NCBI GenBank assembly: GCA_022448945.1
Contig: JAKVCV010000001.1
Span: 406,792-470,791, forward strand
DNA from: Saprospiraceae bacterium
GTDB lineage: Bacteria; Bacteroidota; Bacteroidia; Chitinophagales; Saprospiraceae
DNA: 64,000 nt
Reading direction: 5' to 3'
The position numbers were made by a program, and so were the translations under genes. How positions within the stretch are numbered: position 1 is the first letter of the stretch; each line of letters opens with the position of its first letter. The notes under the pieces were generated by a model that saw only the letters and a program-made list of their open reading frames with translations, ran no database searches and was not told where the DNA came from. Below, one piece after another: positions 9,903 through 53,411 of the stretch.

Positions 9903-11072
9903 ATGGAAGCATATATTGTAGCAGGATATCGTTCTGCTGTTGGAAGAGCCAAAAAAGGTGGTTTTCGTTTCTTTCGCTCTGATGATCTAGCGGTAGAAGT
10001 AGTTAAACATTTGGCCGGCTCGATAGATTTTGACCCTCATACGGTTGATGACGTGTTTGTAGGTTGTGCCAACCCAGAAGGGGAGCAGGGTTTGCAAATT
10101 GGTCGCCAGGTGTCATTAAGAGCACTTGGAAAACCTGTGCCTGGTGTAACTGTTAATCGTTATTGTGCATCGGGTTTAGAAACTATTTCTATGGCTGTTG
10201 CTAAAATTAAAGCTGGCATGGGTCATTGTTATATTGCTGGTGGTACGGAAAGTATGAGTCTGATTCCTATGACTGGATATAAGTTATCTCCAAGTTATGA
10301 TGTAGGATTAAATAATCCTGAATACATAGTTGGAATGGGACTTACTGCCGAAGCTGTTGCTAATAAATATAAGATTACACGTGATGCTCAGGATGAGTTT
10401 GCAGTTAATTCACATATCAAAGCTGCTGCTGCTATTGATGGTGGGAAATTCAAGGATGAAATTGTACCTGTAACAGTAAAGGAGGTAAAAGTAGTAGAAG
10501 GAAGACGGGTAGAAAATGAATGGTCAGTTGATACCGATGAAGGAGTTCGTAGAGGTACTTCAAAAGAAGGGTTGGCAAAATTACGTCCAGCTTTTGCAAT
10601 GAAAGGGTCTGTAACTGCAGGGAATTCTTCTCAAATGTCTGATGGAGCTGCTTTTGTTCTTGTTATGAGTGAAAAAATGGTAAAAGATCTAAATCTGACA
10701 CCTATTGCTAGAATGGTAACTTGTTCAGTTGCAGGCGTTGACCCACTTCACATGGGTATTGGTCCTTGTGCTGCAATTCCAAAAGCATTGGATTATGCGG
10801 GGTTAAAACTTGCTGATATTGACCAGATTGAATTAAACGAAGCATTTGCTGCTCAGGCTCTAGCAGTCATTCAAGAAGCTGGCCTTAATCCGGATATTGT
10901 CAATGTTAATGGAGGTGCAATATCTCTTGGACATCCACTTGGTTGCACTGGTGCTAAATTGAGTATTCAATTGTTCAATGAAATGCGCAGAAGGGGGCAA
11001 AAATACGGAATGGTTACTGCTTGTGTAGGTGGTGGTCAAGGTATAGCAGGGATATATGAGTTGTTAAATTAA
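9903..11072 (+). CDS. fadA: Acetyl-CoA acyltransferase (3-ketoacyl-CoA thiolase)
   Basis: Cleaves 3-ketoacyl-CoA with CoA to acetyl-CoA and a shortened acyl-CoA, the last beta-oxidation step. The 389-residue length is typical. Nucleophile Cys88 sits in NRYCASGLETI, His344 in GHPLGCTGA, and Cys374 in VTACVGGGQGIAG; NEAFAAQAL is also present. It follows the fused dehydrogenase/hydratase on the same strand and is closed by a strong hairpin at 11114-11147. A biosynthetic acetoacetyl-CoA thiolase is possible by sequence alone, but the neighbour argues for degradation. Confidence 0.94.
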   Translation: MEAYIVAGYRSAVGRAKKGGFRFFRSDDLAVEVVKHLAGSIDFDPHTVDDVFVGCANPEGEQGLQIGRQVSLRALGKPVPGVTVNRYCASGLETISMAVAKIKAGMGHCYIAGGTESMSLIPMTGYKLSPSYDVGLNNPEYIVGMGLTAEAVANKYKITRDAQDEFAVNSHIKAAAAIDGGKFKDEIVPVTVKEVKVVEGRRVENEWSVDTDEGVRRGTSKEGLAKLRPAFAMKGSVTAGNSSQMSDGAAFVLVMSEKMVKDLNLTPIARMVTCSVAGVDPLHMGIGPCAAIPKALDYAGLKLADIDQIELNEAFAAQALAVIQEAGLNPDIVNVNGGAISLGHPLGCTGAKLSIQLFNEMRRRGQKYGMVTACVGGGQGIAGIYELLN

Positions 11073-11113
11073 TTACTTTTAACAATAACAATTATAATGG
11101 TATTTATAATTTT

Positions 11114-11147
11114 AAAACCACTTCAAAAATTGAAGTGGTTTTTTTTT
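11114..11147. terminator. Bidirectional intrinsic terminator between convergent genes
   Basis: An 11-bp perfect stem (11116-11126 with 11130-11140) with an AAA loop, extendable by A-T pairs and followed by eight or more T on the plus strand; the minus strand has a shorter TTTT run. It serves the thiolase gene and probably the convergent QueC-like gene. Confidence 0.88.
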
Positions 11148-11781
11148 ATAATTTAGGGAATTCATTTTTATGTTCGTTTAATACTTGATCAATAACTTTA
11201 CATGCAGGGCATTTATGACATCGCTGAAGGTTCCAGTTGTCAGTTCCTTCTGGATAACGGCAAGACCATGTTAATTCCAAAATTTCATTTGGGATAACTT
11301 TCATGACTTCATATTTGCTCATGTGTTTAAGTGGGAATATTATTTTTAAATCATCTCTATTCCGCTCGCTTACAAGATATAGGATTTTTTCTATTTGTTT
11401 TAATCGATCTTGAAAGCCATCCTGCAGGTAATCAAAGGCAATGGCACCTTCAATAAACTCATAGATTTCAGGATGTGCTCTAAGACATGTTGCTGCAGCA
11501 AAATTTACAGCTTCACTATCCCAAATTGGAGGGGGACCTAATTGACCATAATCATAAGATAGCCTTCTGTATGAAAAATTATTGAGTCCCATTTTTCGCA
11601 ACTCATCCAGAATAGCATTAACAGCGATTTCTTCTTTTATACTTCGCGATGCACTACTTCCATTTATAAGATTTACCTTGAAAATCAGAAAGTTGTCATT
11701 AGGGTATTGGTTTAGAGTAAGGAAGAGTGCTGCTGTACTATCAATGCCTCCGGAAAACGGAATTATAGCCCTGTAATTCAT
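11146..11781 (-). CDS. QueC-like PP-loop ATPase with C-terminal zinc motif
   Basis: A 211-residue protein with the PP-loop signature SGGIDST (10-16) and, at the C-terminus, LTWSC (Cys174) followed by CHKCPAC (Cys188, 191, 194). Four cysteines after a TWSC motif are the zinc site of QueC, the 7-cyano-7-deazaguanine synthase. The middle is divergent: I do not see the usual QueC VPARN-type motif, and no queD, queE or queF homologue is nearby. It may be a true preQ0 synthase or a relative acting on another substrate. It is an isolated gene, convergent with fadA. Confidence 0.72.
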   Translation of the reverse strand: MNYRAIIPFSGGIDSTAALFLTLNQYPNDNFLIFKVNLINGSSASRSIKEEIAVNAILDELRKMGLNNFSYRRLSYDYGQLGPPPIWDSEAVNFAAATCLRAHPEIYEFIEGAIAFDYLQDGFQDRLKQIEKILYLVSERNRDDLKIIFPLKHMSKYEVMKVIPNEILELTWSCRYPEGTDNWNLQRCHKCPACKVIDQVLNEHKNEFPKL

Positions 11782-12092
11782 CTATGGTTCAGTTTTTACA
11801 ATTCTTTATTGATGGGTTAATAGATAAATATTATAGATCACATAAAATACAATCTGTCTATAAATTTATTTGTGTGATAATAATAAAAATTATCTTAATC
11901 TACTTATTATTTTATATTTTTTAGAATTTAAAGTTTTCAAAACTATAGATAATTTTTTAATCTTCTTTCCATTTATTACCTTTGGCATTCATTATTTACT
12001 AATAGCGAAATTGGGTAAATAATTCATCATTCAAATTTACCATTAGTTACACTGAATCTACGATTTCACAATTTACAATTAATATAATAATT
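11782..12092. other. Divergent promoter spacer, nothing specific recognised
   Basis: A 311-bp, very AT-rich region between the divergent QueC-like and pruA genes. It must carry both promoters. I see no ORF, stable hairpin or clear promoter pair. Confidence 0.5.
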
Positions 12093-48863: not shown

Positions 48864-50006
48864 ATGAAACTATTAACTTATGCAATAATAGCATTATTTA
48901 CAATATTGGTTTTGGGTTGTACCAAAAAGAACCCCTCAGATGTTAAGAAAAACAATCTAGCAATTATACCAACATTAGAAACCCTTCAGAATGATGATGA
49001 TATCATCTGGATTGGAGAAGTATATATAGACTGTTCGCCAAATTTTGATACTTATCTCAACAAAGATGAGTTGGAAAAAGTAGGTTATAAAGACAAAAGT
49101 ACTTATAAACTCCTCAAATACCAGTTAAGTAATTTAGACTCAGAAAAAGAATATAAGTACAATAATAGTCTTATAAACAAGGTTTTGTCTAATCTAGACA
49201 ATTTGGTTTGTTATAAAGACGATAATTTAACTGATACGTATACAGAAGACGAACTTAAGAAAATTAATTCTTCTATTGATACTATTATCACTTTTGATCC
49301 AGAGACATGGGCTGAAATTGTACAAGTTGTTGTTAATGACTTAAACCCAGAGGACATTAAATTTTTCAGGACAAAACAGTTGTTATACTACAGTAAAAAA
49401 GAAATGATGTTCAAAACGAAGGTTTTAGCAATTGCTCCTATGCAAGCAATTTGGAAAAGCAACCACATCAAGTCCCAATTCCTTCGTCATGAGGCTTTAT
49501 TCTGGCTAAAACCAAATGTTTTGACAGAAACTCCTTCACTGAATCATGAATCTATAACCTGGGCTACACGAATTTATAGAAATTTTTCTTTAGATTCAGT
49601 AGAGGTTATCAAAGGGGATAAAAGTTTTGGGGATGTTTTAGAAATAATGATGGAAGGTTTTCGTCAAAATGCAGGCAAAGTGCATGTAGCAAATGCTTAT
49701 GATAAAGACGGGAATGAAATGTTTGAAGCAGAAGAAATACAATACCTTGGTAAATCTGTTGATACAATCATTACTTTTGATCCTGTTGATTTTGAAGAAA
49801 TAGTACAGGTTGTTGTCAATGAACTTGAAGGTGATGATATCAAAAACCTAAGATTGATGCAGGATTGGATCTGGAATGAAGACACAAAAGAAATAAGTAT
49901 AGTTTATTTGGGCTTTAAGCCAATCATTGATCGTTTGGATGAGAATGGCAATTTCCTGAATTCCGGACCAATGTTTACCCGTCGGGTTGGTAGAGATAGT
50001 CAGTAA
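48864..50006 (+). CDS. GldN-like lipoprotein with two tandem GldN/PorN domains
   Basis: A 380-residue predicted lipoprotein (lipobox LVLGC, Cys19). Two GldN-like modules follow: about 46-215 and 229-378. Shared landmarks are DIIWIGEVYID against SITWATRIYRN, then SIDTIITFDPETWAEIVQVV against SVDTIITFDPVDFEEIVQVV, and a later AIAPMQAI against GFKPIID. GldN/PorN is a periplasmic ring component of the T9SS, usually a single domain encoded in a gldKLMN operon with no lipobox. Neither gldK, gldL nor gldM is in the window. It may be an accessory or alternative ring partner; that is inference. Confidence 0.82.
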   Translation: MKLLTYAIIALFTILVLGCTKKNPSDVKKNNLAIIPTLETLQNDDDIIWIGEVYIDCSPNFDTYLNKDELEKVGYKDKSTYKLLKYQLSNLDSEKEYKYNNSLINKVLSNLDNLVCYKDDNLTDTYTEDELKKINSSIDTIITFDPETWAEIVQVVVNDLNPEDIKFFRTKQLLYYSKKEMMFKTKVLAIAPMQAIWKSNHIKSQFLRHEALFWLKPNVLTETPSLNHESITWATRIYRNFSLDSVEVIKGDKSFGDVLEIMMEGFRQNAGKVHVANAYDKDGNEMFEAEEIQYLGKSVDTIITFDPVDFEEIVQVVVNELEGDDIKNLRLMQDWIWNEDTKEISIVYLGFKPIIDRLDENGNFLNSGPMFTRRVGRDSQ

Positions 50007-50026: not shown

Positions 50027-50059
50027 AAGGGTTAGGTCTTTTTGATCTGGCCCTTTTTT
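50027..50059 (+). terminator. Intrinsic terminator after the GldN-like gene
   Basis: A 12-bp stem (50027-50038 with 50044-50055, including three G-U pairs), loop TTTTT, followed by a run of T. Confidence 0.8.
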
Positions 50060-51137: not shown

Positions 51138-53411
51138 TTAATCAAATACTAGGTATACTTCTTTGTTCATCATAAAGCGCACATTTCTACCTAGTGCAAG
51201 AAATGCAATGGCTTCGTTATTTTCCATGAGTTTGAAGTATTCTTCTGAGTTGAATTTAATTCGGTTGGTCTTGATATTTTTCTCTTTGCTAAGAGAGATA
51301 TTTGCATCAACCCATGCGTTATTATTATTGTACATTGCACGGCCCTGAATATTGATTATTCCTTCAGAAAGATTTCGGGTAGCTCCTGTTTTGTCTTTAT
51401 AAGCCATACGATCAACTCCCTGTTTAGATTCTGCGATATTAATGGCTTTATTCATGGCCTGCGATTCCTGACTGATACGAACAGAGGAACTACCTGATTT
51501 TTTCATGTTTTTTCCCCCATTGCCGCTTATATTCGCTACTTCTTCTTTAAAATCAATATCCTCTTCCATAGTAGGTGCATTCAGTGCACGGGGTCTGAGG
51601 ATCTGGTTACTGGTATTTGTCAATCCATCTCTTGCTGCTATCGCTTCATCTTCGAGTATTAGGAATGAAGTATAAGGGGTTATAATACCATGTTTCTTTG
51701 CTAGACGGGTTACTTCAGTTACCAGTTCCTCTTTTTCGCCATGTAACCGTATCTGATCTATCAGATATCCTACAGCCCTTGAAGCCCAAAGATTTGGTAT
51801 AAATTCCAATTCCGTATTATTTTTGGATAGGTTTACTTCATATTTGAAGGATTTTAGTTCTCCGTTTACCATACCACTGACTGTAATTGTAGACTTGCCG
51901 GAACCTTTGTAACGTCCCATTAAACTTAAGGTGCCACCTTTAAACAAGTCGGGTAATTTTTTGTCATAAACATCTGAAATACCTACATTTTTATCGAATT
52001 CTACTTTTATATTGGTCAATACCGGAGAAGACGCTTTTGTGTAAAAGTTTGATACCTTAACTTCTATGTCTTCATCAGGCAAAACATAGGTTCTATAGGC
52101 ATTAGTGCTTTCAGTAATTTTATCAAGCAAATGGGTGTTGAGGTTAGTTCCGATTCCAAAGGTGAAAATACGTACATTTTTCTTGTTCATTTCCTCAACT
52201 TTTTTTAGTAAAGGGTTTTCCTCTGTTTCGCCAATAGTCGGTTTGCCATCTGTCATAAAAATTACAAAGAAAGGACGTTTGCTATCATTTTTCTGAGCAT
52301 TTAGAGCCAGGTCAAGGGCTTCTTCGATATTGGTTCCCCCAATCGGTTTTATGTCGTCTATAAATGCTATTGCTTTTTTCTTGTTTTCTGTATTAAAGGC
52401 TTTTACTTCGCCAAACAATGAACTTGCTTCAGTAGAAAACGGTACGATTTCGAAGCGATCATTTTTGTTCAGGTTTTCCACACAGAATTTAAGCGCCTTT
52501 TTCGCCTGATTTAGTTTATCACCTGCCATAGAACCTGATTTGTCCATCACAAACACAATGTCTTTGGCTACTACTTCTTGTTTAGATCCAAAACCCGGAC
52601 TGATATTAATAAAGAAATAGCCGTCTTCATTCACAGCTTTATAATCAAGCATGGAAAGACCCAATTTGTTGTTGTCAAGATTGTAATACAATTTAAAATC
52701 ACGGTCAGATTTTACATTGCTCTCTTCAAAACCAACTGTTGCCTGTTCTTCCCCCTTACGAATGATTTCTACTTTGTGAGTAGGGCAATAAACGGTTTTG
52801 ATCTTTTCTTTTCCGTCAATATCAATTTTGAAACTGACCTGTTTGATGGGCTTTGCAGAATATTTTTCGGTGTTCATCGGAAAGCTATATTCTATAGTGC
52901 CATTGTCTTTATGTAAGCTTTCGGTATAGGTCAACTCTATTTTTTGTTCTTTTTGGGGAAGAATAGGAAAAATTCTTACCCTGAACATTCCTTTGCCATA
53001 GTATTCGAGTAGTGCAGGATCTTTCGAACGACGTACTATTTCTTCGTATATTTTTCGTGCTTTTTTGGCATCCAGTAACTCTGCTTCATGTTTTACACCG
53101 TTTATGTCCATTGTGAATTTCGAAATGATGACATCATGCGGAACAGGAAATAAAAAATAACCTTCAAGTTGGCGATTTGTAGGGTTGAAAAATACTTGTC
53201 TGATCGTTGTCGTTGCGGTTAATCCACTGATGTTACAATTGACCTGTGTTGATCTCGATTCCAAAGGGAATAATGCAGCATTGTGTTGTCCCGAGATAAC
53301 TGAATTTGGGTTTGCGTGTTTGTCAGGCATTACTATTATAAAGCCACCTGCATAGGTGTTTGCCAGATTTATCAATAGTGCTGGGATCATGAGCGAAATT
53401 ATTGTTTTCAT
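51138..53411 (-). CDS. Exported VIT and VWA domain protein
   Basis: A 757-residue protein with a signal peptide (about 1-21). A VIT (inter-alpha-trypsin-inhibitor-like) domain spans about 50-190: VNCNISGLTATTTIRQVFFN, LEGYFLFPVPHDVIISKFTM, RKIYEEIVRRSKDPALLEYY. The VWA domain (about 280-455) has an intact MIDAS motif, DIVFVMDKSGSMAGDKL, with IGGTNIEEAL and FMTDGKPTIG. A C-terminal region of about 150 residues contains TRLAKKHGIITPYTSFLILE, conserved in this architecture, and an unfolded Gly/Ser stretch. Likely periplasmic or surface-attached; role unknown. Confidence 0.92.
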   Translation of the reverse strand: MKTIISLMIPALLINLANTYAGGFIIVMPDKHANPNSVISGQHNAALFPLESRSTQVNCNISGLTATTTIRQVFFNPTNRQLEGYFLFPVPHDVIISKFTMDINGVKHEAELLDAKKARKIYEEIVRRSKDPALLEYYGKGMFRVRIFPILPQKEQKIELTYTESLHKDNGTIEYSFPMNTEKYSAKPIKQVSFKIDIDGKEKIKTVYCPTHKVEIIRKGEEQATVGFEESNVKSDRDFKLYYNLDNNKLGLSMLDYKAVNEDGYFFINISPGFGSKQEVVAKDIVFVMDKSGSMAGDKLNQAKKALKFCVENLNKNDRFEIVPFSTEASSLFGEVKAFNTENKKKAIAFIDDIKPIGGTNIEEALDLALNAQKNDSKRPFFVIFMTDGKPTIGETEENPLLKKVEEMNKKNVRIFTFGIGTNLNTHLLDKITESTNAYRTYVLPDEDIEVKVSNFYTKASSPVLTNIKVEFDKNVGISDVYDKKLPDLFKGGTLSLMGRYKGSGKSTITVSGMVNGELKSFKYEVNLSKNNTELEFIPNLWASRAVGYLIDQIRLHGEKEELVTEVTRLAKKHGIITPYTSFLILEDEAIAARDGLTNTSNQILRPRALNAPTMEEDIDFKEEVANISGNGGKNMKKSGSSSVRISQESQAMNKAINIAESKQGVDRMAYKDKTGATRNLSEGIINIQGRAMYNNNNAWVDANISLSKEKNIKTNRIKFNSEEYFKLMENNEAIAFLALGRNVRFMMNKEVYLVFD

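Follow-up and report, generated by a model that had tools for sequence, protein, structure and literature searches.

A predicted Saprospiraceae lipoprotein with two fused GldN cores and the GldM tip domains encoded beside some of its relatives

Introduction

What does a GldN protein do when two of its cores are fused in one chain? The question is raised by a gene in a 64,000-nucleotide stretch of a Saprospiraceae genome (hereafter the window), in which a first-pass annotation had read a lipid-anchored protein with two tandem GldN domains. The host is a marine bacterium. A second gldN copy, GldO, occurs in Flavobacterium johnsoniae and is single-core. Like GldO, the window protein is a GldN paralogue in a genome with a canonical GldN, a likeness that extends to a tandem second gldN in the canonical locus of that genome; unlike GldO, it combines two cores in one chain and lacks the full C-terminus. 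Among the titles and abstract openings listed in literature searches, none concerned such proteins, which does not establish them as undescribed.

According to the available text of PMC12421860, PorN is anchored to PorK by its N- and C-terminal helices, and the counterpart of the conserved C-terminal end of GldN reaches PorK in the solved ring. The same text places PorM D4 in contact with PorN, A241 of which can be cross-linked to PorM, and reports that D220 of PorN touches PorK and that E235/N236 touch the next PorN. Domains D3-D4 of GldM/PorM (PF21602, PF12080), a family other than that of the window protein, are therein the motor partner of PorN. In the part of PMC12635249 that was available, GldN is argued to belong to the gliding track.

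Results and Discussion

The gene and its surroundings

The gene encodes a protein of 380 residues with a predicted signal peptide, two core modules and no gldKLMN genes around it (Table 1). Specifically, HMM scans of its neighbours identified, among others, topA, a Mur ligase, PhyH and a convergent VIT/vWA-domain gene, and a gld domain was found in none of the seven neighbours scanned. The hairpin 3′ of the gene suggests that it may be transcribed alone, although as a predicted terminator it is weak evidence.

Table 1. Coordinates of the double-GldN gene, its parts and neighbour (window positions), and of genes encoding M56 peptidases with C-terminal GldM domains (positions within each locus)
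Feature	Position	Strand	Basis
Two-core GldN lipoprotein gene, 380 aa	48864..50006	+	ORF with ATG start; Pfam GldN twice; relatives
Predicted lipoprotein signal peptide, to lipobox Cys19 (LVLGC)	48864..48920	+	Pattern; model helix 2-18
GldN core module 1, residues 46-221	48999..49526	+	PF19841; hhalign; whole-chain model vs PorN
GldN core module 2, residues 222-380	49527..50003	+	PF19841; hhalign; module modelled alone
DTIITFDP...EIVQVVVN block, module 1	49278..49337	+	Turn shared by canonical GldN and the two modules
DTIITFDP...EIVQVVVN block, module 2	49761..49820	+	Position of the repeat
Terminator-like hairpin with T-tail, directly 3′ of the gene	50027..50055	+	1 found vs 0.7 expected in shuffles
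VIT/vWA-domain gene, convergent to the double-GldN gene	51138..53411	-	Pfam
M56-GldM fusion	L212:5178-6992
M56-GldM fusion	L213:5499-7292
M56-GldM fusion	L214:5863-7632
M56-GldM fusion	L215:828-2639
M56-GldM fusion	L216:6382-8040
M56-GldM fusion	L217:5563-7368
M56-GldM fusion	L218:5274-7031
M56-GldM fusion	L220:6671-8374
M56-GldM fusion	L221:4658-6328

The canonical operon was found on another contig of the same genome (C12), where PorP/SprF, GldK, GldL, GldM and two GldN genes are located, and a third single-core gldN of canonical type lies on contig C9 beside a PorV-family gene (L006:9639-10520 and 10557-11849). The placement of the double gene outside any gldKLMN locus, as first annotated, was thus confirmed. 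Additionally, the genome encodes two free GldM D3-D4 proteins, one of 216 aa on contig C4 with both domains over the cut-off, and one of 202 aa on contig C6 with both domains below it; both are unlinked to the window gene. Freed D3-D4 copies showed no first or second GldM Pfam domain, which makes them unlikely motor stators.

Both modules have the GldN core

The Pfam model for GldN (PF19841, cut-off 23 bits) matched the whole window protein in two stretches at 54.7 bits, and also matched each module alone, at 35.8 bits for residues 46-215 (E 8.8e-9) and 26.5 bits for residues 229-380 (E 6.2e-6). Against a canonical GldN profile built from 32 sequences, hhalign gave E values of 6.9e-28 for module 1 and 3.2e-28 for module 2. 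Moreover, comparison of the two modules as profiles gave an E value of 8.5e-33 (26% identity over 148 columns), so that the repeat is not due to chance. The NCBIfam equivalog for the ring subunit, TIGR03523, recovered module 1 only, at 23.3 bits and far below its cut-off of 85.9, and had no match to module 2 at an E value of 1, whereas the three single-core GldNs of the same genome scored 169.5-199.4 bits. Across an alignment of 18 double-GldN proteins (A1), PF19841 matched all members at an E value of 0.01 or better and TIGR03523 matched 16 at 0.01.

The inspection of the letters that preceded this work had proposed a duplicated GldN-like domain, and the duplication held. The block on which it was based does occur twice: DTIITFDP and EIVQVVVN start at residues 139 and 151 in module 1, and at 300 and 312 in module 2, a spacing of 161 residues rather than the 160 given. 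Its suggested HMM comparison came out positive for both modules with Pfam, and for module 1 only with the stricter TIGR03523. The first reading had also allowed that the protein might simply be the GldN of its lineage, or that one module alone would be recognised as GldN; neither is the case, since the genome has other gldN genes and both modules match the Pfam family.

Structure predictions agreed with the sequence comparisons. In the full-length AlphaFold model (pLDDT 80.9, pTM 0.77), strands and helices follow one another in much the same order in each half, and the model aligned with PorN (7pvh_A) at Z 6.9 and rmsd 4.4 over 147 residues, in the model range 47-251. When modelled alone, module 2 reached a pLDDT of 90.8; all five of its Foldseek matches at an E value of 0.001 or less were to PorN (1.7e-4 to 7.0e-4), and its best VIA row was also PorN (9mzu_B, Z 8.7, rmsd 4.1, 132 residues), with the best non-PorN row among the matches listed at Z 3.2. 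PorN was thus the sole clear match among the families that Foldseek and VIA listed. A Z below 8 is unsafe by itself, and for the double-GldN protein fold and sequence agree. The best-kept feature of both modules was a DTI.TFDPETxEE turn (a group consensus over few columns), the FDPETxEE part of which is common to module 1, module 2 and canonical GldN. Each module thereby has the core and conserved motifs of GldN/PorN (PF19841; TIGR03523; PDB 7pvh, 9ots, 9mzu, 9myj).

At the protein level, PIIDRLDENGNFLNSGPMF was identical in module 2 and the GldN of the same genome. We rejected gene conversion from the canonical gldN as the origin of this segment: of its 57 DNA positions 9 differ, and the two genes have no word in common that is longer than 12 bases. 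These differences make shared ancestry with conservation at the protein level the likelier explanation. A second idea, that canonical GldN itself consists of one and a third repeats, with its C-terminal strand corresponding to the beginning of module 2, arose from the whole-chain structure alignment running into module 2 and was dropped when profiles of the canonical C-terminus and the module starts gave E values of 0.12-0.17.

Double-GldN proteins are spread across Saprospiraceae

Using a profile of 18 doubles and five scored candidates per genome, we found that at least 55 of the 398 Saprospiraceae (f1) genomes encode proteins spanning both modules, representing 20 genera and including all eight genomes from the genus of the window. 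A family bound mainly to one genus is thereby ruled out. No double spanning both modules was recovered outside Saprospiraceae from a phylum-level sample (296 genomes, six candidates scored each), and none was among the matches listed for an order-level sample (298 genomes, six candidates each). A profile scan of genome contigs returned one locus, from an uncultured Aureispira MAG, and the assignment of f1 to Saprospiraceae is based on this record. Three genomes without GldN (G025, G027, and G178) had been chosen for the absence of a match in the family search and so constitute no test.

Divergence within the group was high, with identities to the window protein as low as 25% in the 18-member alignment. 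Several copies were present in some genomes, and four in tandem in one (G002; L042:8013-13144). Within that tandem, one copy had a lipobox and three did not. Elsewhere, the double-GldN gene of G005 (L037:1522-2670) is interrupted by a TAG codon and may be a pseudogene or contain a sequencing error.

We read 72 distinct double proteins, of which 67 were left below 80% identity. In a tree of 166 modules, the 67 first modules, the 67 second modules and the 32 canonical cores each fell on one side of a branch, with SH-aLRT values of 86, 60 and 100, respectively, the value for the second modules being low. With this moderate to low support, the module phylogeny called for at the outset fits one duplication, and one ancestral tandem duplication before the family spread would be the simplest reading.

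Signal peptides differ between groups. The lipobox pattern fits the window protein at Cys19, and the protein is a predicted lipoprotein; among the 67 non-redundant doubles the pattern fits seven (one doubtful) and is unmatched in 60, whereas an AXA-like site followed by Q, D, E or N was present in 41. Both patterns are crude, and the lipobox pattern misses a likely lipoprotein (L011) and reports a doubtful one (L127). Matches lay mainly in the clade of the window, in which the double-GldN is probably lipid-anchored, and most relatives apparently have an ordinary signal peptide. The lipid anchor initially described therefore stands as a prediction for the window protein and is no trait of the family. 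A second group of doubles from the same genus has no lipobox (L044, L046, L047, L048, L049, and L052), and each of these genes is near ECF-sigma-like (~195 aa), RpoD-like and bioD-like genes, named by eye.

The C-terminal end of canonical GldN is missing

Canonical GldN ends in a FEHDLWSY-like segment, and from the PMF motif on comprises about 83 residues (83-91), compared with a median of nine and a maximum of 21 in the doubles, whose modules end at the start of the C-terminal region of canonical GldN. The HDLW-type end was present in none of the 67 non-redundant doubles and in 32 of 33 single-core proteins, a comparison in which the canonical set was itself defined by this motif together with a length of 270 (the 37 single rows comprised 32 accepted as canonical, four pieces of broken doubles, and L095, which was without the motif). 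At the other end of the protein, module 1 is preceded by a short segment that was modelled with low confidence, and the profile alignment stops short of the canonical N-terminus.

When PorN positions were transferred with an offset of 23, derived by eye, D220, E235/N236 and A241 of the available text of PMC12421860 mapped to the stretch that doubles lack. The absence of this stretch argues against ring membership, and it also weakens the idea of a simple copy of the PorM contact; judged from sequence and from the contacts described in that text, the known GldM contact would be at least partly gone in doubles.

These observations bear on the idea that the double-GldN serves the GldKN ring as an alternative or accessory part, as first proposed, or is a subunit of the gliding track. 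Under this explanation, the tandem cores would replace two adjoining GldN cores and the lipid would replace the GldK anchor. Two fused cores do resemble two adjoining PorN cores, between which PorM is predicted to bind in the available text of PMC12421860; the FDPETxEE turn is kept in both modules, and the clade of the window has its own lipobox. However, the GldK-binding end and the stretch through which PorN copies interlock are absent from the doubles, the former in all 67, and the proposed substitute anchor is unmatched in 60 of them. Furthermore, GldN/PorN has one core per chain, ends in the GldK-binding segment and is encoded in the gldKLMN operon, whereas the window protein has two cores, is without that end and is encoded elsewhere than on the operon contig. 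Among 57 double-GldN neighbourhoods, we observed neither a canonical gldN nor a full-length gldM. The missing C-terminal end together with the lack of these neighbours makes a ring-subunit role unlikely for the window protein, and the broader proposal of a ring or track component improbable for the double-GldN proteins.

Freed GldM tips adjoin some double-GldN genes

The 57 neighbourhoods comprised the window, L037-L052 and L108-L147, many of them on short contigs. In five (L121, L122, L128, L131, and L133), a free GldM D3-D4 gene directly adjoins the double gene, and in the other 52 no tip was adjacent. Pfam confirmed the tips of L121, L131 and L133, with GldM_4th of L133 just below the cut-off, while those of L122 and L128 were identified by a custom tip profile; pieces of GldM that stand next to canonical gldN at the end of a contig (L174, L175, L178, and L179 among them) were excluded from the counts. 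Pairwise identities among the five doubles range from 19 to 43%, and all but one of these loci came from one genus (g62). Mapped on the tree, adjacency required three changes, forced by the starred branches, which may represent one gain followed by losses. In L121 (9303-13056), the same contig carries the pair of double-GldN and tip a second time in inverted orientation, a duplication that may be an artefact of assembly.

At the level of whole genomes, the GldM-tip profile matched at least three times in 30 of 55 double-bearing genomes versus 37 of 343 others (Fisher p 2e-12), and in 21 of 46 versus 37 of 343 when the genus of the window was left out (p 6e-8); these counts include full GldM and fusions, with at most seven candidates scored per genome, and the test is confounded by kinship and genome size. 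Matches were abundant in some Saprospiraceae genomes, with 11 in G106, full GldM included. A GldM match was present in 54 of the 55 double-bearing genomes, over the cut-off in 53; the tip profile matched 381 of all 398 Saprospiraceae genomes, so co-presence with a double says little. Of the two double-bearing genomes without GldM over the cut-off, G387 (99% complete) has canonical GldN and no GldM or GldK over the cut-off, and G400 (96%) has GldK with a 31-position GldM fragment ~1 kb beyond it, and no canonical GldN or full GldM. Both assemblies are in 350-410 contigs, and the missing GldM is likely due to this fragmentation.

Other neighbours vary by group. The VIT/vWA gene (sequence cluster 9) adjoins the double gene in the window, L039, L040, L041 and L043, although two of the four same-genus loci are near-identical, and the Pfam basis is the window gene, the others being assigned by sequence cluster. 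In genus g83 (L112, L115, L118, and L119; further off in L114), a CHU_C-tailed protein, PorP/SprF and a PD40-OmpA gene were located near the double, identities that come from a Pfam scan of L112 only; this context is weak, as such cassettes may be common.

From this variation one might suppose that an envelope protein has reused the GldN core for a task outside the T9SS, for example a structural or binding one. VIT/vWA genes in some groups versus sigma-factor-like and bioD-like genes in another are consistent with this, as are the divergence of the doubles and the two double-bearing genomes in which GldM was missing over the cut-off. Yet freed GldM tips adjoin doubles at three points of the tree, and the g83 genes have the T9SS-type neighbours just described, and we regard a task outside the T9SS as somewhat unlikely.

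The explanation we favour is that the double-GldN is an accessory GldN-core partner of GldM-tip (D3-D4) domains, acting as an adaptor or regulator rather than in the ring. It is favoured because the GldN core is present twice, the tail is missing and GldM tips, the domains that in the available text of PMC12421860 meet PorN, recur as neighbours. An exported protein of two fused GldN/PorN cores, which seems to go back to a single tandem duplication within the lineage of Saprospiraceae, lacks the tail that seats GldN on GldK and would remain outside the ring; its cores may bind the D4 end of GldM or the freed D3-D4 proteins, and it could tether, compete for or regulate the T9SS or gliding motor at the outer membrane. 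The neighbours are better explained by a role at the GldM contact than by a ring part. We nevertheless put the accessory-partner explanation forward tentatively, since we infer binding, place of action and effect, the residue reported to contact PorM is missing, and a tip adjoins the double gene in only five of the 57 loci. For the coupling, tuning and monitoring of the T9SS/gliding motor, tail-less GldN cores beside motor-less GldM tips are of interest because they dissect the ring-motor contact naturally. If the binding is true, doubles and tips would regulate that contact or serve as decoys for it.

M56 receptors ending in GldM domains

GldM tips also occur at the end of putative receptors. 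Nine ORFs encode a BlaR1-type M56 peptidase with C-terminal GldM_3rd/GldM_4th domains by Pfam (Table 1), one with GldM_4th below the cut-off; the regions were chosen for long ORFs, so the count implies no frequency. The six genes tested near M56 fusions were confirmed as BlaI-type (Penicillinase_R) repressors, within two genes of six of the fusions.

Such proteins raise the possibility of an envelope signalling system made of T9SS parts, in which the double-GldN would be a ligand or co-receptor and M56 receptors ending in GldM D3-D4 would sense double or free GldN. In addition to the fusions and their repressor genes, a BlaI-M56 pair located ~2.7 kb from a double gene (L147) points in this direction. 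However, the M56 protein of L147 had no Pfam GldM domain and matched the custom tip profile weakly, no M56 fusion was among the GldM_4th matches of the window's own genome, and we saw no M56-GldM fusion immediately adjoining a double gene. A ligand or co-receptor role consequently appears quite improbable.

A wider version would combine these parts, namely two-core GldN, free GldM D3-D4 and BlaI-linked M56-GldM D3-D4 receptors, into an envelope adaptor and signalling kit through which Saprospiraceae would have dismantled and reused the ring-motor contact of the T9SS, with the double-GldN as a portable dock that reports motor activity to the receptors or tunes it. We consider such a kit speculative and unlikely. 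Should the accessory binding favoured above be true, M56 proteins ending in a GldM tip would be candidate sensors of T9SS status.

Finally, further short GldM pieces were noted. In L216 and L221, the M56 fusion is followed by a short GldM-tip protein. D4-only ORFs of 131-156 aa were present in genomes of the window's genus (L172:11407-12546, L170:5193-6355, and L180:4039-4509); those of L172 and L180 adjoin full gldM genes, and in L170 and L172 the D4-only ORF is followed by a free D3-D4 ORF.
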